Positions 3,032-43,113 of a DNA stretch of 64,000 nt are shown piece by piece. The stretch spans positions 62,001 through 126,000 of the forward strand of contig JADYZN010000033.1 in assembly GCA_020853095.1 (NCBI GenBank). The letters run 5' to 3'. A program made the translations under genes and the position numbers. The notes beneath the pieces were generated by a model. It worked only from the letters and a program-made list of their open reading frames with translations. It searched no databases and was not told where the DNA came from. Within the stretch, counting starts at the first letter, position 1; each line of letters starts with the position of its first letter. The DNA is from Phycisphaerales bacterium. GTDB taxonomy: Bacteria; Planctomycetota; Phycisphaerae; Tepidisphaerales; Tepidisphaeraceae.

Positions 3032-3982
3032 TTATTGCGGTTCTTCCAATGCCTGCATCGCATGGTCCAGCAGCCGCTGAACCCCCGAAGGCTGATCGGC
3101 GCGGATGTGCAGATCCCAGGCCATGTGCCACTGGGTGTTGACCGGCTTGAATCCCAACGCCTCCACCCGCCGTTGCAGATCGGGCATGTGGGCGGCGCCG
3201 TAAAATATGGCGAGATGGCGATGACCTTGTTTGAGCGTCGATTCGAGGACTGAGATCGCCGCCTTGTTCCGTTCGGTCAGGATGACCGATCCATCGGGGC
3301 CATCCAGCCCGCCCGCGATACGTTCGATGTCCCCCAGTTGGCGGGCCAGCACGAGCTTGATCTGCCGGTCGAGGTCCGGGCGGGTCAACAAGTCCAGCAA
3401 ATCCTCCGTCTGCGCATCCGATTGGGGCGGCGGATCCGCCAGCGCCCGCATCAGGCCCTGCAACATCAACGATGCGAACGACTCGCCACGCTGGCGTTGC
3501 AATTTTTCAAACGTCTGGGTGTCCAGGTCGGCGTGGATGAAATTGGCCGGGCGATAATCGATGACATCCAGTTGATAATCCAGCGCCAGAACATCCTTCA
3601 AAAATCGTTGAAGTTGCGCCACCGAGCTGTCCCCGCCAACCCCGGGGGCGTGTGGCTTCATCCCTTTGGGCATCACCATTTCGTACAGCACCGCGTCAAA
3701 ATCCTGAAAATGCCGGTTCAGTTCCTGATAGTAGGAGGTTTCGCCGATGTGAATGGCCGCGATAAGATCAATCGTGACGCCATCCGCGTTGACCAGCGTC
3801 ACTTCGCCACTCTGGAGGCTTCCTCCGGCCGCCCCTTCATCCACGAAACGCAGATAGGGTGATGCATCGGCCTGGGTTTGCGCCGGCGCGGTGGTGGGCG
3901 CCTGATCGGCCCGAACCATCGGCAGACAGGCCCAGCCCAGAGCGATGTTGACCCCCAGGGCGATGAGCCAGAGTTTTCGCAT
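3032..3982 (-). CDS. TraB/GumN-family secreted protein
   Basis: A 316-residue protein of the TraB/PrgY/GumN fold. Two signature blocks are visible. The first, near the N-terminus, is DLIAAIHIGETSYYQELN followed by FDAVLYEM. The second, near the C-terminus, is AIFYGAAHMPDLQRR. These hold the GxxH and Glu residues proposed as a metal-dependent catalytic site. MRKLWLIALGVNIALG is a signal sequence, so the protein acts outside the cytoplasm. I chose the ATG at 3982 because GGGAG lies about 5 nt upstream. An in-frame ATG at 4006, 8 nt after a TAGAAT box, is a possible leaderless alternative giving 324 residues. The gene faces the MacB operon tail-to-tail. The biological role of the family is not settled. 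Confidence 0.85.
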   Translation of the reverse strand: MRKLWLIALGVNIALGWACLPMVRADQAPTTAPAQTQADASPYLRFVDEGAAGGSLQSGEVTLVNADGVTIDLIAAIHIGETSYYQELNRHFQDFDAVLYEMVMPKGMKPHAPGVGGDSSVAQLQRFLKDVLALDYQLDVIDYRPANFIHADLDTQTFEKLQRQRGESFASLMLQGLMRALADPPPQSDAQTEDLLDLLTRPDLDRQIKLVLARQLGDIERIAGGLDGPDGSVILTERNKAAISVLESTLKQGHRHLAIFYGAAHMPDLQRRVEALGFKPVNTQWHMAWDLHIRADQPSGVQRLLDHAMQALEEPQ

Positions 3983-4020
3983 GGTCACTCCCGCGTTCAA
4001 GATCATTCGATATCATTCTA

Positions 4021-4692
4021 TCACGAGTCGGCCGGCTTCTGGTCAAGATTTTCCAACAATACCGACTCGCCCAGCGACCCGGCCAGTTGGACCACGGCCT
4101 GTCGCAACACCCGCACCTGTTCCTCCAGCCGGTTGATGCGCTCCTTGAAATCGCCCGTCGGCGACTCGGCCGTGACGGTCGTCGCTTCGATCGGATGCGA
4201 ATCAGCGCAAAGCAGTTGTACGAACCGCTGCGCCCGCGTGCCGGGAGATGGTGGGATCATCTTCGCCAGCGGTTCGGGCCGATTCATCAGCGCATCGAGC
4301 ATCCCCTGCGCCTGTTCGGTCGATTCCAGCGGGTGCATCCGCGAGGCCCTGGCGCGCAATTCTCCCAATGTCTGCGGTCCGCGCAGCATCAATTCCGCCA
4401 GGATCACCAGCTCGGCCGTGCGAACATGCAGCACTTCATTGGCATTGTGGCGATATTTTGAAACCCTGGCCCCCATCTGATCCACCCGCACCACCAGCCC
4501 CTTGGCGCGCAGCGATTCAACGGCGGAAAAGACCGCGTTCTCATCCAATTCGGTCACCGGGTCGCGGTTGTTCTTCTGGTTCGCGCCGTTCACCAGGGCA
4601 TTGAGAGACAACGGGTACTGTTCCGGCGTCGTTTGCGCCTTTTCCACCAGCACCCCCAGCACACGAGCTTCGTCGGCGGTCAGTTCAATCAT
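4021..4692 (-). CDS. YceH family protein (DUF480)
   Basis: A 223-residue YceH/UPF0502 protein, a family made of two winged-helix domains and a C-terminal coiled coil. The N-terminus MIELTADEARVLGVLVEKAQ and the downstream PLSLNALVNGANQKNNRDPV are diagnostic. The C-terminal FKERINRLEEQVRVLRQAVVQ is the coiled coil. The start at 4692 matches the family start, and a TACACT -10-like box ends 7 nt before it, suggesting a leaderless message; an ATG at 4716 would add eight residues. Its function is unknown beyond probable nucleic-acid or protein binding. It is divergent from mutL, with a 75 bp gap carrying back-to-back promoters. Confidence 0.93.
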   Translation of the reverse strand: MIELTADEARVLGVLVEKAQTTPEQYPLSLNALVNGANQKNNRDPVTELDENAVFSAVESLRAKGLVVRVDQMGARVSKYRHNANEVLHVRTAELVILAELMLRGPQTLGELRARASRMHPLESTEQAQGMLDALMNRPEPLAKMIPPSPGTRAQRFVQLLCADSHPIEATTVTAESPTGDFKERINRLEEQVRVLRQAVVQLAGSLGESVLLENLDQKPADS

Positions 4693-4699
4693 GCGGTTC

Positions 4700-4728
4700 A
4701 GTGTAGGGATCGGCATTCAATCTGGCCA
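4700..4728 (-). promoter_or_regulatory. promoter of yceH-like gene (leaderless type)
   Basis: Read on the minus strand, TACACT (4705-4700) lies 7 nt before the ATG at 4692. A weak -35-like TGGCCA (4728-4723) sits 17 nt upstream. The start codon falls where transcription should begin. Confidence 0.5.
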
Positions 4729-4731
4729 CTT

Positions 4732-4760
4732 TTGGCCGTCGCTGCTTCGTCCCCTATAAT
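4732..4760 (+). promoter_or_regulatory. promoter of mutL (leaderless type)
   Basis: TTGGCC (4732-4737), a 17 nt spacer and a perfect TATAAT (4755-4760). The GTG start of mutL is 7 nt after the -10 box, at the expected +1, and no Shine-Dalgarno sequence is possible on such a transcript. Confidence 0.7.
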
Positions 4761-4767
4761 CGGCCGC

Positions 4768-6570
4768 GTGAATCCCCGACCGATCCAACAGCTCAGCCCG
4801 TCGCTGGTCAACCGCATCGCCGCCGGCGAAGTGATCGAACGGCCCGCCTCGGTGGTCAAGGAGCTGGTCGAAAACGCCATCGACGCCGGCGCGGCCCACA
4901 TCCAGGTCGAAGTCGAAGAGGGAGGCCATGCCCTGATCCGCGTGGTGGATGATGGATCGGGCATCGCACCGGCCGATTTGCCTCTGGCATTCGCCTCGCA
5001 CGCCACCAGCAAATTGACCTGTGATGAAGATTTGACCCGAATCGCCACCATGGGATTTCGGGGCGAGGCGCTGGCGAGCATCGGGGCGGTCTCGCAGGCG
5101 AAAATCCTCAGCCGAATCCCCACCGAACAGGCGGCCTATGAGATCCACAATCGTGGCGGCGTCATCAGCGACCCCCAGGCGGCCGCCGGCAACGTCGGCA
5201 CCACCATCGAAATCCACCACCTGTTCTACAACACCCCCGCCCGACGCAAATTTTTGCGCGGCGCATCCACCGAATATGGCTACATCGCCGAAATGGTGAT
5301 CCGGCTCGCCCTGCCGCATCCGAAAATCGGGTTTACGCTGCTGCACAATGGCCGCAAAACCCTGCAATTGCCCCCCGCCGAGGCGGTTGATCGGTTGCTT
5401 GAAGCCTGGCCTTCGGATTTTCGCGAGCAACGCCTGCCGCTGGATGTGCGGGATGCGGAGGTTCGACTTCGCGGCGTCATCGGCCTGCCGGAACTGGCCC
5501 GCCCGACCGCCAAATATCAACAGTTGTATCTCAATGGCCGGGCGATTCGCGATAAATTCATGCAACACGCCCTGCGCGAGGCGTATCGCGGGTTGACTGA
5601 GCCGGGGCGGTACCCGGCCGCGATTTTGTTGCTGGACATTCCGCCGTCGGATGTCGATGTCAACGTCCATCCCACCAAGATGGAGGTCCGTTTTCGCGAC
5701 AGCGGGCGGATTCACGGGCTGGTCCTGGCGGCCGTTCGTGAAAAACTGCTCGGCAGCGATTTGACCCCCTCGGCCGTCGCCCAACCAACCGCCATAACGC
5801 CGGAACGGGTGGATTTACGCTCCCGGCTGGCATCGTTTCTACAACAATCCCTCCCCACCCACGCCGCCGAGTCCGATCAATCAACGGCACAACCGGCCAC
5901 CGCCGCATCAATCGACCTGCCTCCGTTGTTGGAACGGTCGATTGCCACGGAATCAACGGTGGAGGAGCCAAAACCTTTACCGGCCTCATCCACCACCGGC
6001 CCGGCCATTCAATTGCACAACAGTTATCTGGTCGCCGAAAGCCCCGAGGGGATGATCATCATCGACCAGCACGCGCTGCACGAACGGATCATGTATGAAG
6101 ACCTGCGTGCCCGCATGTTGCGCGGGCCGTTGGAATCGCAGCGGCTGCTGATTCCGCTTCCATTGACCGTCACCAGCCGGCAGATGGCGCTGGTGGATCA
6201 GATTCAACCGTTGCTTCAACGGCTTGGGATTGAATTGACCTCGTTCGGCCCGGACAGCATCGCCGTGCAGGCGTTTCCATCCTTTCTGCATCGGTTGGAA
6301 CCGGATCGCTTCATCCAGGAACTGCTGGAGCGCGGCGAACAGGAATTGCTCGACCTGCACGATGAGGAACTGTTGCACGAGGTGTTGGACATGATGGCCT
6401 GCAAGGCGGCCGTCAAAGCCGGAGATCCGTTGTCGCCGGCCGAGATCGAAGCATTGCTGGCCCGTCGCGAGCTTGTGGAACGTTCCAGCAATTGCCCCCA
6501 CGGCCGCCCCACCACGCTGCGGCTGTCCCTCAAAGACCTCGAAAAACAGTTCAAACGCACCGGGTTTTAA
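4768..6570 (+). CDS. mutL: DNA mismatch repair protein MutL
   Basis: A 600-residue MutL. The N-terminal GHKL ATPase domain carries IAAGEVIERPASVVKELVENA, VVDDGSGI and GFRGEALASIGA. After a Ser/Thr/Pro/Ala-rich linker comes the C-terminal dimerisation domain. It contains DQHALHERIMYE, which fits the DQHA(X)2E(X)4E metal motif of nicking MutL proteins, plus ACKAAVKAGD and CPHGRPT. This MutL is therefore expected to be a latent endonuclease, as in methyl-independent mismatch repair, rather than the E. coli type. I chose GTG at 4768 because conserved sequence begins there (VNPRPIQQL), the residues encoded upstream are not MutL-like, and the promoter ends 7 nt before it. No mutS is in the window. 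Confidence 0.97.
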   Translation: MNPRPIQQLSPSLVNRIAAGEVIERPASVVKELVENAIDAGAAHIQVEVEEGGHALIRVVDDGSGIAPADLPLAFASHATSKLTCDEDLTRIATMGFRGEALASIGAVSQAKILSRIPTEQAAYEIHNRGGVISDPQAAAGNVGTTIEIHHLFYNTPARRKFLRGASTEYGYIAEMVIRLALPHPKIGFTLLHNGRKTLQLPPAEAVDRLLEAWPSDFREQRLPLDVRDAEVRLRGVIGLPELARPTAKYQQLYLNGRAIRDKFMQHALREAYRGLTEPGRYPAAILLLDIPPSDVDVNVHPTKMEVRFRDSGRIHGLVLAAVREKLLGSDLTPSAVAQPTAITPERVDLRSRLASFLQQSLPTHAAESDQSTAQPATAASIDLPPLLERSIATESTVEEPKPLPASSTTGPAIQLHNSYLVAESPEGMIIIDQHALHERIMYEDLRARMLRGPLESQRLLIPLPLTVTSRQMALVDQIQPLLQRLGIELTSFGPDSIAVQAFPSFLHRLEPDRFIQELLERGEQELLDLHDEELLHEVLDMMACKAAVKAGDPLSPAEIEALLARRELVERSSNCPHGRPTTLRLSLKDLEKQFKRTGF

Positions 6571-37994: not shown

Positions 37995-38621
37995 TTATGG
38001 GGGAGATTGCAGGGGGGGTTGCAGGTTGGCCGAGTCGATGGGCAACTCGGACGAATGCAGATCGGCCCACATGGCGGCCTCGCCATCCAGCGGGCTGCGA
38101 ATGTTGTAAGCCTGATACGCGATCATTTCACCGATGCGGATGATCAAGTCCACCAGTCGTTCGCCGGCCGTCCAATGATCCCCCACGCAGATGGTGGCCG
38201 GGTCGATATTGGGGTGGAAGATCGGGGTGAGCATCCGGCATTTGGGGGCCAGGCGAGGATAATCGGCGGTCAATTGAATTTCCACCTCGTGGCGGTTGCG
38301 GCGGATGGGCTTGCCATCCGGGCCGCGATCCAGACCCAAAACCTGATAGGCGATGCGGTAAAGATCGGGCGGATTCCCTTGGGAATGAATGATTTGGATC
38401 GGGGGAAAATTCGCAAAGGCATGTGTGATTTGCTGTGCGTCGGCCGTCAATCGGCGAAAACGCACGCCGGGCTTGTGGGCGGCGGCCGGTTGATTCACCG
38501 GCGCGGCGATGTGGGGAACGCTCAACGTCGCCCCGCACCCTTTGCAGCGGGCGGATCGGCCGGCATAGGCATCGGGAACACTGAATGATCGGCCGCAGCC
38601 CTGACAGGTAAAATCAATCAT
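37995..38621 (-). CDS. E2-like ubiquitin-conjugating enzyme with N-terminal zinc ribbon
   Basis: A 208-residue protein. Residues 6-29 hold two CxxC pairs (CQGC, CKGC), a zinc ribbon. From about residue 55 the UBC fold can be followed to RHEVEIQLTADYPRLAPK, then the E2 motif FHPNIDPATICVGDHW. This gives HPN at 136-138 and Cys145 nine residues after the His, almost the eukaryotic spacing. The Trp150 region and a C-terminal helix pair (RLVDLIIRIGEMIAYQA) also match E2 enzymes. The Asn of HPN is the oxyanion-hole residue. It should accept an activated Ubl on Cys145. It is the last gene of a minus-strand operon with Ubl, E1, JAMM and two FHA proteins. ATG at 38621 follows the FHA-RING stop by 21 nt. 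Confidence 0.88.
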   Translation of the reverse strand: MIDFTCQGCGRSFSVPDAYAGRSARCKGCGATLSVPHIAAPVNQPAAAHKPGVRFRRLTADAQQITHAFANFPPIQIIHSQGNPPDLYRIAYQVLGLDRGPDGKPIRRNRHEVEIQLTADYPRLAPKCRMLTPIFHPNIDPATICVGDHWTAGERLVDLIIRIGEMIAYQAYNIRSPLDGEAAMWADLHSSELPIDSANLQPPLQSPP

Positions 38622-38642
38622 AAGCAATGATTACAACACTAT

Positions 38643-39575
38643 TTATCGCATCGACCACAACGATCGACGCAGCCAGAAGGAATACGAAAAGACCAGCCCA
38701 GCGGCCAGTCCAACCAGAGAAATCAGCAATGCGCCGGCCGCCAGCTTGCGATGTTGGCGCGTGCGGACGAGATAAATCCCGTCGATCAAACCCGTCACCA
38801 GTGCGGTCAGGCCAAAGGTGAACATGCCCAGCACCGCGGCGAACAAACTCGATGCCAGCAACAACAAAGGCCAGTGATGCGAATCGACCGGGACGGGATC
38901 GTGATCCATCGTCGTCGGCGCAGTGGCTTGCGGGCCGGCCAGGATATTCACCTGGTCACAACCATAGGCCGCACATCCCTGGTTTTCGACCCAGCATTCC
39001 GCATGATAAACATGCTGGCAGGATGGACAGCAAGTCACCTGTTCGGCCGGCAAAATGACGCACTGACAGATGCCGCAGGCGGTCTGTCCGGCCGATGCGA
39101 CCATCACGGGCCTGGCCTGGGGGATGGATTGCGGTATCCGCACCGACCGGCCGCAATGCGCGCATCGGCCCTTTGATTTGGCATGGTTGGGACTGACCCA
39201 CAACGGCGCGCCGCACTCGCAATTAAAGAGCGTTCCATCAACCTCGGCCGGCCCGCCGCGATCGAGTGTCAACAATCCTTCGGGCAGTTGGTCGCTTGTG
39301 TGAAAAGTGATGCGCGACGGGCCGATTTCGACCTGATCCCCATCGGCCAGTTGAATCCGGCCGGTGGCGGGCTTGCCGTTGAGTTTCAAGCCGGTGCGGG
39401 AGGAGTTGTCGGCGACGTAATAGCGATCCTTGTCCCCATCGAACCATGCGTGGATGCGGGAGACCGCGACATCATTGATGATGATGTCGTTGGTCAGCCG
39501 CCGTCCCACCAGCAACCGGCCGTCAAACCGGCAGCCAACCTGTCCATCGGGTTGTTGGATGATGAGCGTCGGCAT
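38643..39575 (-). CDS. FHA, zinc-ribbon, RING-like and TM protein (candidate E3)
   Basis: A 310-residue protein with four parts. Residues 1-95 are an FHA domain (GRRLTNDIIINDVAVSRIHA, then NSSRTGLKLNGK), which binds phosphothreonine. Cys119, Cys121, Cys138 and Cys141 form a zinc ribbon. Residues 167-206 are a RING-like treble clef: CGIC, then CPSC, HAEC, and Cys201/Cys206. The pattern C-x2-C-x12-C-x2-C-x4-H-x2-C-x6-C-x4-C resembles the prokaryotic RING families associated with ubiquitin-like gene clusters. The C-terminus has at least two membrane helices. In an operon with E1, E2 and Ubl genes, it is the likely E3, held at the membrane. It starts 2 nt after the upstream gene. Confidence 0.82.
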   Translation of the reverse strand: MPTLIIQQPDGQVGCRFDGRLLVGRRLTNDIIINDVAVSRIHAWFDGDKDRYYVADNSSRTGLKLNGKPATGRIQLADGDQVEIGPSRITFHTSDQLPEGLLTLDRGGPAEVDGTLFNCECGAPLWVSPNHAKSKGRCAHCGRSVRIPQSIPQARPVMVASAGQTACGICQCVILPAEQVTCCPSCQHVYHAECWVENQGCAAYGCDQVNILAGPQATAPTTMDHDPVPVDSHHWPLLLLASSLFAAVLGMFTFGLTALVTGLIDGIYLVRTRQHRKLAAGALLISLVGLAAGLVFSYSFWLRRSLWSMR

Positions 39576-39577
39576 GG

Positions 39578-40852
39578 TTATCCGCCCGCGGCGGCGGCCC
39601 GTGGTTTTTCCTGGAACGTAAAGGTGGTGGCGCCGATCTGGATGCGGTCATTGTTGCGCAACCGCGCCCGCTGGATCGGCCGGCCATTGACCAGGGTCTG
39701 CCCGCCCAATGGCAAATCCTCGATTTCATATCCGCCGGGGACGATGTGGACGGCGGCGTGTCGTCGTCCCACCTGCGGGTCTTTGAACAGATAGATCGCG
39801 CATTGAAGCGATGAGCCGATGTACGTTGGATTGCGATACAGGACAAACTGTTTTCCGGCGATCAGGCCGGCGGTGACTTTCAACCATCCGGATTTGACGA
39901 CGTTTTCGATCAACCCCGTGCCAAATCCCGCGATCGCGCCGATCATCGCGACCCCCACCAGCCGCGACAAGTGGGCATTGCCGGTGTTGACGGCGATGAA
40001 TTCGTACAACACCCCCCCCACCAATCCACCGACCAGCCCGCCGACCATCCCGACGAAAAACTTTCGGGCGTTTCGCATCACCACCCCCGAACCGATGCTC
40101 AGAAACAAACCCAACACCGCCCACGATCCCGCGCGGGCCACGATCTGGCGCGCTTCGGTGGCGATGGATGGGTCTCCTTCAATGAAGCGAAACACCCGGT
40201 CCACGCAAAACGCCGCCACGATGCCGCCGGCCAATCCCAGGATCGCCCCCACCGAACCGTTGATGATCGCGGCCTGCGCGTTGCGTTGAACCAGCGCTTC
40301 GGCCATCGCCAGGCACATGGCGATCATCATGCCGGCGATGGAATAAAACAGGGCGTTGGCCACAAATTCATCCCATTCCTCTCCCGCGGCCACCTGCGTT
40401 CGCCGTTGTTCTTTCTCAACTTCCGTCAGCGAACGGTCGGCTTCGATCGCATAATAAGGATTGTTGCGTGCCACGCGGTCGATCTGCACGATCGCCGCAT
40501 CCGCCTGGGATTCGGTCAACCGGCGGGCGTTTTTTTCCTGTAAAATTTGCCGGCGGGCGTCGATCCATTCGCGCGCCTCGACACGGGCATTGGGCCGAAA
40601 GTGCAACACCTCGCCGCACACCCATCCCAGCATCCCTCCCAGCAGGCCAAACAACGTCATGTAGACCAGCGTGTTGTACCACAGGCCGGCCGATGCGCGG
40701 GCCGGTTCGGGATGGTCGACCGCCGGCAACATCTGCAATTCCTGTCCGGCGGAAGCCAGCGCCTCCTGCTGTCGCAATTTTTCATCAATGCGCGGATCGC
40801 TGATCTCATCCCACGAGATGGTCATGGGCTGGTCGTTCGGGCCTGCCATCAT
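39578..40852 (-). CDS. polytopic membrane protein with C-terminal FHA domain
   Basis: A 424-residue protein. After a soluble N-terminal region come about six hydrophobic helices rich in Gly and Ala (LVYMTLFGLLGGMLGWVCG, GSVGAILGLAGGIVAAFCV, FVGMVGGLVGGLVGGVLYEF). Between the first and second helices is a charged stretch of about 75 residues. The last 90 residues are an FHA domain (LYRNPTYIGSSLQCAIYLF, GRRHAAVHIVPGGYEIED). FHA domains read phosphothreonine, so an unseen Ser/Thr kinase may act upstream. The ATG at 40852 overlaps the JAMM stop (ATGA); ATG at 40849 is equally possible. It is the fourth gene of the ubiquitin-like operon. Confidence 0.82.
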   Translation of the reverse strand: MMAGPNDQPMTISWDEISDPRIDEKLRQQEALASAGQELQMLPAVDHPEPARASAGLWYNTLVYMTLFGLLGGMLGWVCGEVLHFRPNARVEAREWIDARRQILQEKNARRLTESQADAAIVQIDRVARNNPYYAIEADRSLTEVEKEQRRTQVAAGEEWDEFVANALFYSIAGMMIAMCLAMAEALVQRNAQAAIINGSVGAILGLAGGIVAAFCVDRVFRFIEGDPSIATEARQIVARAGSWAVLGLFLSIGSGVVMRNARKFFVGMVGGLVGGLVGGVLYEFIAVNTGNAHLSRLVGVAMIGAIAGFGTGLIENVVKSGWLKVTAGLIAGKQFVLYRNPTYIGSSLQCAIYLFKDPQVGRRHAAVHIVPGGYEIEDLPLGGQTLVNGRPIQRARLRNNDRIQIGATTFTFQEKPRAAAAGG

Positions 40853-41598
40853 CGCACCCACCGATTCATGATGGCCGCCTCCGGGATGGCCGACGGCACG
40901 GCCCCGCCTCCGCCCATCCAATACAACATCCAGATCGACCAGGCGATCGCCGCCAGCGCCAACAGCACGATCAGGATGAAGATGTACATCCCCATTTTCC
41001 CTTCCGATGGCTTTGGTTCAGGAATTGGCTGCATCCGCTCAGGTGTCTCATCCGCCGGTTTGTCGGACTGGACCAGAAATTCCCTGCGGACGGGTTTCCC
41101 TTCATCCCAGACAAACGCCCCTTCATCCTTGCCCAGCGGGTCATATACAAACGCCACCTGCCAGGAGAGATCAAAAAAACTCTGGTGAATGAACAGGTCC
41201 ATCCCCGACAGGAAAATCCCAAACCCCGGATGGGTGTGATACCATCCAACGATTTTGCGATCCGGATGCAGACGGTCCATCTCCGCTTGAATATGCGACC
41301 ACGTTTCGGCCGTGAAGGTGACGTTGGCGCTGGCGCTGGTTGCGTTTTCGCCGCGGATGCACGCCTCCACGTGCAGATAAGGCCCGGCATCATCCCTGCA
41401 TGGCAGCCCCACCAGCACGCCGCAGACTTCCGCATCAAGACGGGTATGGCCATGGTTGTGAATCTCATCAAGCACCGACTGCGCGATGACCACCTGGAAT
41501 TCGTTTCGCCTCCCTTTCAATCCCGCCAGCGTGCGATCAACCCACATCGCGGATTCCATCGCCGCGCCGCCGGATTCGGATGGAGTCTTCACGTCCAT
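40849..41598 (-). CDS. membrane-anchored JAB/JAMM metalloprotease (candidate Ubl processing enzyme)
   Basis: A 249-residue protein. The JAMM motif is intact: upstream Glu57 in AEVCGVLVG, then HTHPGFGIFLSGMD, giving His121, His123, Ser131 and Asp134 in the exact H-x-H-x7-S-x2-D spacing of zinc deubiquitinases (Rpn11, AMSH-type). A Pro/Glu-rich linker leads to one C-terminal membrane helix (MYIFILIVLLALAAIAWSIW). In ubiquitin-like systems JAB proteins trim Ubl precursors or remove Ubl from targets. It starts within the end of the E1 gene (10 nt overlap) and its stop overlaps the next gene. Confidence 0.88.
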   Translation of the reverse strand: MDVKTPSESGGAAMESAMWVDRTLAGLKGRRNEFQVVIAQSVLDEIHNHGHTRLDAEVCGVLVGLPCRDDAGPYLHVEACIRGENATSASANVTFTAETWSHIQAEMDRLHPDRKIVGWYHTHPGFGIFLSGMDLFIHQSFFDLSWQVAFVYDPLGKDEGAFVWDEGKPVRREFLVQSDKPADETPERMQPIPEPKPSEGKMGMYIFILIVLLALAAIAWSIWMLYWMGGGGAVPSAIPEAAIMNRWVR

Positions 41599-42821
41599 TC
41601 CAAATCCTCCTGACCGCCGTATAAATCCCCCAGGATGGCCGGCGCATCGCCGGACAATTCCAAACCAATCGCCCGGTCGGCCGTTCGGGCGATGAGAATG
41701 TCAAACGCCGGAACCCCGATCTGAGCTGCCGTGCAGTCCAAAAACGATTCCCGCCCGGTGATCTGATAAAACGTCCGCACCTCCCGGCGAGTATTCGGGC
41801 ATTGCGGACAGTCGGCCATGGCCGCACCGACTTTGCCCAGTGATGCGAAGACCCGTTCCTCCTGGCCGCATCGGGGACAAACCAGTTTTTCCAGCACGTC
41901 GCGGCCCAATTCCAGGTTTGCCCGGTGTCCCAGACGTTGCCGTGCGATCTCCAGCAATTCGCCCAGCGTGATCGAGTCGGCCCGCGCTTCCAACCGATCC
42001 ACCCTCTCCAACGGATCGTGGCTCAGACAATCGGGATTGCGCTGATATTCCACCTGAAAAGAATCGGCCGACAGTCCCGCGAACATCCACCCCCGGCCGG
42101 CGATCGTATCCATCTGATGAATGATCTTCAGCGCCTCCTGGCACTGCACGCCGGCGATGATCGACGCGATAGTCGGCGTGGTGGGCGTCTTGCCCTCCTG
42201 CATATCCTGCCGCGACAAAAGGTTGCACGAACGGCGGCTTTGAAGCAGCTTCCAGTCTGTCGGCGACATCGTGCATTCGTAGCAAGGCCCATCCGGTTGA
42301 AAGACGCGCGCCACCCCTTGAATCTGTTCAATCGCCCCGTCGATCCAGGGTTTGTTCAATTTGTAACAAGCCCGGTTGATCGCCAGCCGGGCCTCGCGGT
42401 TGTCCAGGCCTCCGATGACAAGGTCCGCCCAGCGAAACACCCCCAGCCCCAGGTCATGGACCACGTTGCCGTCAAAATGGTTGACACGCATGGCGGGGTA
42501 CAAGTCGCGTGCCGCCGCCGCCGCCACCTTTGCCTTGGGGTGGCCTTTGTCGGCCGCCCGGTACAGCACCGAGCGGGACAGGTTGGAATTTTCGATCCGA
42601 TCCATGTCCGCGATCAGCAGGTTGCCGATCCCCAGCAACGCCAGGTTCTTGATGATCTCATTGCCCAGCGCCCCGGCCCCGACGACCAGAATTCTGGCAC
42701 GCGAGAGTTTGGCCTGATCCCACCATGAGATCAACCTGAACCGTCCAAAACGGCCCTCCTCCTCCGGCCGAACCGTGAAGACCGGTTCATCGCCCTGGGA
42801 TTGTGTGGGGTTTGTGTCCAT
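41589..42821 (-). CDS. E1-like Ubl-activating enzyme (ThiF/MoeB superfamily) with C-terminal zinc ribbon
   Basis: A 410-residue activating enzyme. The adenylation domain has VVGAGALGNEIIKNLALLGI (residues 46-65), IADMDRIENSNLSRSVL with the ATP-contacting Arg, GGLDNREARLAINRACY and PTTPTIASIIAGVQCQEALK. A CxxC at 180/183 (PCYECTM) is followed by RRSCNLLSRQ. Cys199 lies where eukaryotic E1s have the catalytic Cys, so a thioester step is plausible. The C-terminal 130 residues hold a zinc ribbon (Cys315, 318, 338, 341) and QIGVPAFDILIARTADRAIG, perhaps an E2- or Ubl-presenting domain. ATG at 42821 is inside the end of the Ubl gene (35 nt overlap); no other good start codon lies before the ATP-binding domain. 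Confidence 0.88.
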   Translation of the reverse strand: MDTNPTQSQGDEPVFTVRPEEEGRFGRFRLISWWDQAKLSRARILVVGAGALGNEIIKNLALLGIGNLLIADMDRIENSNLSRSVLYRAADKGHPKAKVAAAAARDLYPAMRVNHFDGNVVHDLGLGVFRWADLVIGGLDNREARLAINRACYKLNKPWIDGAIEQIQGVARVFQPDGPCYECTMSPTDWKLLQSRRSCNLLSRQDMQEGKTPTTPTIASIIAGVQCQEALKIIHQMDTIAGRGWMFAGLSADSFQVEYQRNPDCLSHDPLERVDRLEARADSITLGELLEIARQRLGHRANLELGRDVLEKLVCPRCGQEERVFASLGKVGAAMADCPQCPNTRREVRTFYQITGRESFLDCTAAQIGVPAFDILIARTADRAIGLELSGDAPAILGDLYGGQEDLEWT

Positions 42822-43113
42822 GAATCCATCGTGCGAACAGCCCGGCCCCGGCGGTGATTTCCGGTTGCAATCGAAGCACATCCCCATCCTTGACGCCGAC
42901 CTGCGAAAGCGACTGGTGATCCAGCAATTGCTTTCCGGTGGCGCGATGCTGAAATTTATAACTCAACACCTGCCCGTCCGGGCCGAATTGCGGAAAGTTC
43001 ATCTTCTCCAGCAATACCGCCAGAATGCGGCCAACCGGCGCATCATCCGGCATCTGCACCGGTTGCCGCTTGTTGCCGGTGGAATCCCAAACCTGAACGG
43101 TCAACATGGCCAT
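42787..43113 (-). CDS. YukD-like ubiquitin-fold protein (Ubl)
   Basis: A 108-residue beta-grasp protein. The first strand TVQVWDSTGNKRQPVQMPDD, helix GRILAVLLEKMNFPQFG and closing HQSLSQVGVKDGDVLRLQPE match YukD/EsaB-type ubiquitin folds, as the DHQSL and GVKDGDVL blocks do in ubiquitin. The tail (residues 85-108) ends HKPHTIPGR, with a Gly at the penultimate position and no Gly-Gly. It is the first gene of a six-gene minus-strand operon with E1, JAMM, FHA, FHA-RING and E2. GGAG lies 8 nt before the ATG. No type VII secretion genes are nearby, so a role as a conjugated modifier is likelier than a secretion role. Confidence 0.82.
   Translation of the reverse strand: MAMLTVQVWDSTGNKRQPVQMPDDAPVGRILAVLLEKMNFPQFGPDGQVLSYKFQHRATGKQLLDHQSLSQVGVKDGDVLRLQPEITAGAGLFARWIHGHKPHTIPGR

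Follow-up and report, generated by a model that had tools for sequence, protein, structure and literature searches.

In a planctomycete bacterium, the fifth gene of a six-gene ubiquitin-like (Ubl) cluster, a set with likeness to the ubiquitin pathway of eukaryotes, encodes a protein that combines an FHA domain, a zinc ribbon, a RING-like domain and membrane helices and that, judged from its sequence, probably chooses what gets tagged. It is most likely a membrane-anchored E3 or E2-docking subunit, the FHA domain of which would bring phosphothreonine-bearing clients to Ubl conjugation. With slightly better than even confidence, the protein is assigned as the subunit that selects substrates in a bacterial pathway for ubiquitin-like conjugation, in which the E2 would be docked by the RING-like domain and the clients by the FHA domain.

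The window (the whole 64 kb stretch of DNA that was analysed) carries the cluster on its minus strand, from 43113 to 37995. The six co-directional genes overlap or lie at most 15 nt apart and follow the order YukD-type Ubl, E1, JAMM peptidase, membrane-FHA protein, FHA-RING protein and E2 (Table 1). The true start of the membrane-FHA protein is probably further in, at an ATG. The frame of the FHA-RING protein starts with ATG, and the plus strand across the same interval is interrupted by an in-frame stop. As read from their ORFs, the flanking genes belong to branched-chain amino acid transport on one side and to exopolysaccharide synthesis on the other, and they look unrelated to the cluster. 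Promoter and terminator scans gave no excess over shuffles. For the RING protein, no match was obtained with the PADLOC defence models or with PHROGs; the defence-model matches of the E1, the E2 and the JAB protein were generic.

Table 1. Coordinates of the cluster genes, of the domains of the FHA-RING protein and of RING-like/HtrA-like fusions in other loci.
Feature	Positions	Strand	Evidence
Ubl, YukD-like beta-grasp, 108 aa	42787..43113	-	Pfam PF08817 YukD E=3.8e-10; ubiquitin PF00240 weak
E1-like ThiF adenylating enzyme, 432 aa, C-terminal zinc ribbon	41589..42887	-	PF00899 E=6.4e-54
JAB/JAMM peptidase, 249 aa, one C-terminal membrane helix	40849..41598	-	PF01398 E=2.2e-13; hydropathy 198-229
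Multi-helix membrane protein, C-terminal FHA, at most 447 aa from TTG	39578..40921	-	PF00498 E=1e-11
FHA - zinc ribbon - RING-like - membrane helices protein, 310 aa	38643..39575	-	ORF, Pfam, alignments, AlphaFold2 model
FHA domain, residues 1-95	39291..39575	-	PF00498, 17-sequence alignment, structural match
Zinc ribbon, residues 117-148	39132..39227	-	Full-length alignment
RING-like C4HC3 domain, residues 165-208	38952..39083	-	PF14446, model, fold match
Membrane helices, residues 234-302	38670..38876	-	Full-length model, hydropathy
E2 (UBC fold), N-terminal zinc ribbon, 210 aa from TTG / 208 from ATG at 38621	37995..38627	-	PF00179 (UQ_con) E=2.8e-10
HtrA fusion, L076	1123-2400
HtrA fusion, L077	6413-7825
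HtrA fusion, L078	5863-7242
HtrA fusion, L079	8089-9459
HtrA fusion, L080	6359-7888
HtrA fusion, L081	7927-9237
HtrA fusion, L125	2097-3455

The motifs of the pathway enzymes were compared across loci. A conserved RRSCxLL Cys precedes TPTTPT in the E1, and the JAMM peptidase has a complete E...HTHP...SxxD metal/active-site motif. In an alignment of 31 E2 sequences, HPN is invariant and at least 90% keep the catalytic Cys (Cys147 in TTG numbering). The E2 of the window has HPN, Cys and Trp and aligns to eukaryotic E2s (matches to 1.6e-13). The conserved end of the Ubl, ...QPEITAG, is reached at residue 89 and is followed here by 19 further residues. In several loci of relatives the stop codon follows ...TAG immediately, and in others a variable tail comes between them, a pattern that would fit a glycine acting as the active end and a tail trimmed by the JAMM peptidase. 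The tail in the window corresponds to 42787-42846; variable residues past the invariant TAG were seen in many loci. It is very improbable that the pathway conjugates nothing and that the YukD-like protein serves, as YukD does, as the structural Ubl of a secretion-type membrane complex. The Ubl does belong to the YukD family, and Bacillus subtilis YukD was found unconjugated (PMC1779556), but a full E1, an E2 with its catalytic Cys and a JAMM peptidase with its full active-site motif accompany it in the cluster, and its C-terminal Gly is conserved at or before the stop. Degradation by a 20S proteasome was considered as a fate of tagged proteins and rejected: the genome has one PF00227 match, a 182-aa frame that is probably HslV.

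Two kinds of unusual E2 were encountered in other loci. E2-like proteins that lack the catalytic Cys are encoded in L084 (7868-8665; HPNIDDKSIYLEEHW) and in L023 (genus g40), and no E1, JAB or Ubl gene was found within the 16 kb stretch of L084. The E2s of L076-L080 carry a long C-terminal Cys-rich array with treble-clef-like repeats.

The FHA-RING protein has the parts that the original prediction had given it, and the E2 gene does lie next to it, starting 15 nt downstream on the same strand. The N-terminal FHA domain is matched by PF00498 with E=7.5e-13 (49.1 bits; the cut-off is 20.7). Residues 1-96 of the model superpose on FHA structures with Z up to 16.8 (rmsd 1.2 over 93 residues, Mycobacterium tuberculosis EmbR), and on the FHA domain of RNF8 with Z 12.9. 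By sequence and predicted fold together, the FHA assignment is considered secure. Ligands C119, C121, C138 and C141 of the zinc ribbon are invariant in the 17-sequence full-length alignment. A similar ribbon is found at the N-terminus of the E2, which is also matched by the RING-family profile, apparently through this ribbon region. The full-length AlphaFold2 model (pLDDT 81) places about three helices at residues 235-252, 256-271 and 276-301, in agreement with hydropathy peaks at 234-270 and 277-302.

That the FHA domain could recognise phosphothreonine, as had been suggested, is consistent with its residues. In the 17 sequences R25, S39, R40 and H42 are conserved (R25 in at least 90%, S39 invariant), and the NGT motif varies in its Asn. 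R25 and S39 are the Arg and Ser through which known FHA domains contact phosphothreonine. In the membrane-FHA partner, the phosphothreonine-binding Arg and Ser are replaced family-wide (IGSS, VGRRH), so this partner may be a non-phospho FHA. If either FHA domain of the cluster reads phosphothreonine, it would therefore be that of the RING protein, in which R25, S39 and H42 are kept. Six protein kinase genes are present in the genome; none was found in the 64 kb window, and hence none in the operon. In locus L086, an FHA-Ser/Thr kinase gene (3198-5039) adjoins JAB-E2-Ubl-E1 genes and by its position reads as a link between phosphorylation and such pathways.

The RING-like domain was compared in 37 homologous domains. 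The eight Cys/His ligands named in the original prediction (C167, C170, C183, C186, H191, C194, C201 and C206) proved to be exactly the invariant set: they are conserved in 37/37 domains and form the sole invariant columns of the 57-column alignment. At domain identities of 23-75%, this invariance, together with the conserved neighbourhood, excludes chance. An alternative RING-H2 reading with C172, C182 and H188 as ligands (C186-x-H188) was rejected, these residues being variable. The ligand order is C4HC3 and the last pair is C-x4-C, in agreement with prokaryotic RINGs, which a 2024 review (PMC11354881) describes as C4HC3 with a longer last pair. The Prok-RING_1 profile (PF14446) scores the window protein below its cut-off of 29.1 (18.3 bits for the whole protein, 24.1 for the isolated domain); operon-type relatives score above it, and the best match reaches 8e-13. 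The predicted resemblance to prokaryotic RING families of Ubl clusters was upheld by the match of all 37 homologues to the profile, by the complete Ubl-E1-JAB-E2 cluster and by co-occurrence with the E2.

The fold was assessed with an AlphaFold2 domain model built with the 37 alignment rows (pLDDT 90.1, pTM 0.73). The model superposes best on eukaryotic RINGs, with PHD fingers close behind, and the unrelated zinc knuckle that had been named as the refuting outcome of structure prediction was not seen. On re-alignment to PDB chains, the RING of RNF165 (bound to UbcH5b~Ub) came first with Z 5.3 (rmsd 1.6 Å over 43 residues), followed by a SEAC subunit, EL5 and other RINGs; PHD fingers reached Z 4.3 at best. 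Foldseek, run with the 57-aa domain, gave a PHD finger as the top row and a mixture of PHD and RING rows with non-significant E-values, so the weight of the fold assignment lies on the re-alignment and on sequence. Zinc domains of about 45 residues give low Z values at best, so the RING fold is more likely than PHD, by about 1 Z, which is a near tie and not a proof. The domain might instead be a Ubl-independent treble-clef adaptor, that is, a PHD/C1/LIM-like finger that binds peptides or peptidases and whose place beside the E2 is historical. This is improbable, even though the C4HC3 spacing is PHD-like, 27 of the 37 domains are weakly matched by PHD families and 24 by C1 families, and Foldseek ranks a PHD finger first; Prok-RING_1 is the sole family that matches all 37, with the best score, and the re-alignment favours RINGs by the small difference given above. 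Sequence and structure scores do not separate RING from PHD and C1 cleanly.

The distribution of the domain bears on the same question. Among 26 genomes of the same family (Phycisphaerae-like), the E2 profile was found in 20 and the RING profile in 20, both in 19, neither in five and one alone in two (Fisher one-sided p=5e-4, a value that ignores relatedness). Both genomes with one gene alone are incomplete assemblies: in G318 (65% complete) the contig that carries the E2, at 3611-4012, is 4,800 bases long; G307 (79% complete) has its RING gene near a contig end, and no E2 was found in the assembly. The order Ubl-E1-JAB-membraneFHA-RING-E2 is kept across the family, with exceptions; in G302, the RING and E2 genes are on separate contigs. 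Such tight synteny and the co-loss with the E2 argue against an adaptor that only happens to be a neighbour. Across the wider phylum, among 294 genomes, Prok-RING_1 was matched in 25/28 with an E2 against 26/266 without a detected E2, which speaks for the E2-linked role. The adaptor reading draws on the latter 26 genomes and on sister clusters (Table 1), where membrane helices connect a paralogous RING-like domain to an HtrA/trypsin-like protease (GNSGGGLY) in a gene that adjoins the E2. Family f25 has 74 (G178), 62 (G149) and 49 (G191) Prok-RING_1 matches per genome, numbers that also fit an adaptor. The fusions and the genomes without a detected E2 indicate that the RING-like domain is, as far as sequence tells, a general module, so the E3 role assigned to it here rests on context.

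Within the lineage, the domain order FHA-ribbon-RING-helices, originally thought unusual, is instead the normal form, with the RING as its constant part; the FHA domain is missing in L072, the membrane helices in L061, L066 and L067, and the ribbon in L124. Two distant Ubl clusters (L093 and L126) also have, next to the E1, a divergent FHA-like region linked to a divergent RING. In a scan of genome contigs, a Phycisphaerales MAG was the sole close relative, and one further hit matched the FHA only. The E2 loci of family f25 are L027 (G178), L018/L085 (G149) and L020/L086 (G191), with E1, Ubl and JAB alongside where the neighbourhood was examined. The eukaryotic-like WSPA motif, which contacts RINGs, is present in the E2s of L018/L085, L086, L087, L027 and L022 (G214). 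If f25 represents a large bacterial expansion of E3-like proteins, this would be notable.

The surfaces through which a RING would meet its E2 are altered on both sides. Residue D207 follows the last ligand of the RING-like domain, and Arg is never found there in the family, which means that the canonical linchpin arginine is absent; a Trp directly follows C194, away from the usual RING helix position. On the E2 side, the aligned sequences point to replacement of the canonical RING-contact residues: in loop 4, Arg takes the place of the M or Y of the aligned eukaryotic E2s, and the loop-7 sequence is WTAG or WAAG versus WSPA (Ubc13) or WTAS. The contact residue in loop 4 of UbcH5 is F. Retained is the hydrophobic residue between the first and second ligands, I169, which is I or V in 17/18 of the first alignment rows (the family's own copies) and stands where known RINGs touch their E2. 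The missing linchpin, the replaced E2 residues and the presence of the domain in protease fusions or in genomes that have no detected E2 speak, at the level of sequence, against a textbook RING E3.

These changes would also suit a docking scaffold, in which the RING-like domain and the ribbon gather the E2, the Ubl and the membrane-FHA protein at the membrane and the E2 modifies clients without being activated. We regard this as unlikely, although it has a better claim than the adaptor. Two FHA membrane proteins and a membrane-anchored JAMM peptidase in one cluster agree with it, as do the lost contact residues and the ribbon, which has a counterpart on the E2 and may serve in docking or dimerisation. 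The ribbon is absent from L124, however, and is therefore not essential, and the hydrophobic position and all ligands are kept as in RINGs that engage E2s. Moreover, prokaryotic RINGs of such operons are predicted E3s according to PMC7159879, and for one archaeal RING from an operon E3 activity has been proven (PMC5654768).

Under the preferred assignment as a substrate-selecting subunit, the pathway would run as follows. The YukD-type Ubl, with its mature C-terminus ...TAG, would be adenylated by the E1 and handed to Cys147 of the E2; any residues beyond the glycine, as present here, would be trimmed by the JAMM peptidase. The C-terminal helices would hold the FHA-RING protein at the cytoplasmic face of the membrane, a topology suggested by the positively charged VRTRQHRK loop. 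There, the C4HC3 RING would dock the charged E2 and could stimulate transfer, and the FHA domain would hold phosphothreonine-bearing clients, so that a Ser/Thr kinase would set which protein is modified. The membrane-anchored JAMM peptidase may also reverse the modification. A more far-reaching version is put forward only tentatively: that the protein is a membrane-anchored RING E3 that reads phosphothreonine, so that kinase signalling picks the targets of a single-glycine YukD-type Ubl, and that, independently of RNF8/CHFR, it arose with an E2-RING interface that had been re-engineered. Were this so, a single bacterial protein would link Ser/Thr phosphorylation to ubiquitin-like tagging, much as RNF8 does at eukaryotic DNA breaks. 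The altered contact residues of the E2 and the RING offer a test case for the evolution of this interface. The compact set of six genes would lend itself to reconstitution in E. coli, so that the question of whether this Prok-RING is an E3 is directly answerable. We found no published test of this FHA-RING protein.

The gene set is of a kind already predicted in bacteria, and prokaryotic RINGs in Ubl operons have been described before; the FHA-RING-membrane form looks like a variant of them. Conjugation of YukD-like Ubls by systems of this type is reportedly proposed in the abstract of the 2011 paper on prokaryotic RINGs. PMC7159879 attributes the candidate RING E3s of Ubl operons to Burroughs, Iyer and Aravind (2011). 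The present protein shares with the operons of Prok-RING family 1 (PF14446) the C4HC3 order, the longer gap in the last pair and the adjoining E1, E2, JAB and Ubl genes; relative to what the citing paper describes, it adds the N-terminal FHA domain and the zinc ribbon. Bil (BilABCD) likewise unites Ubl, E1, E2 and JAB within one operon; PMC11354881 gives BilA two Ubl domains and lists no RING among the four genes. The present cluster differs in that only its E1 clearly resembles the PADLOC E1-E2 and BilD models.

To our knowledge, the small RING of Caldiarchaeum subterraneum has no FHA or membrane part. Its operon also comprises Ubl, E1, E2 and a JAMM enzyme (Rpn11, which trims pro-ubiquitin), and the RING, with demonstrated E3 activity, has a hydrophobic residue (I30) between the first and second ligands, as found here (PMC5654768). 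It differs in being a C3H2C3 domain (RING-H2) with a functional Arg (R69) and in the conserved loop-4 and loop-7 contacts of its E2 (PMC5654768). The architecture held in common with eukaryotic FHA-RING ligases is probably convergent. In these ligases, namely RNF8, CHFR and yeast Dma1/Dma2, the FHA domain precedes the RING, as it does in the present protein. They differ from it by their canonical RINGs, by working with ubiquitin and by having no membrane helices. RNF8, the FHA domain of which reads phosphorylated MDC1 (PMC3705210), and CHFR are the nearest functional parallels.
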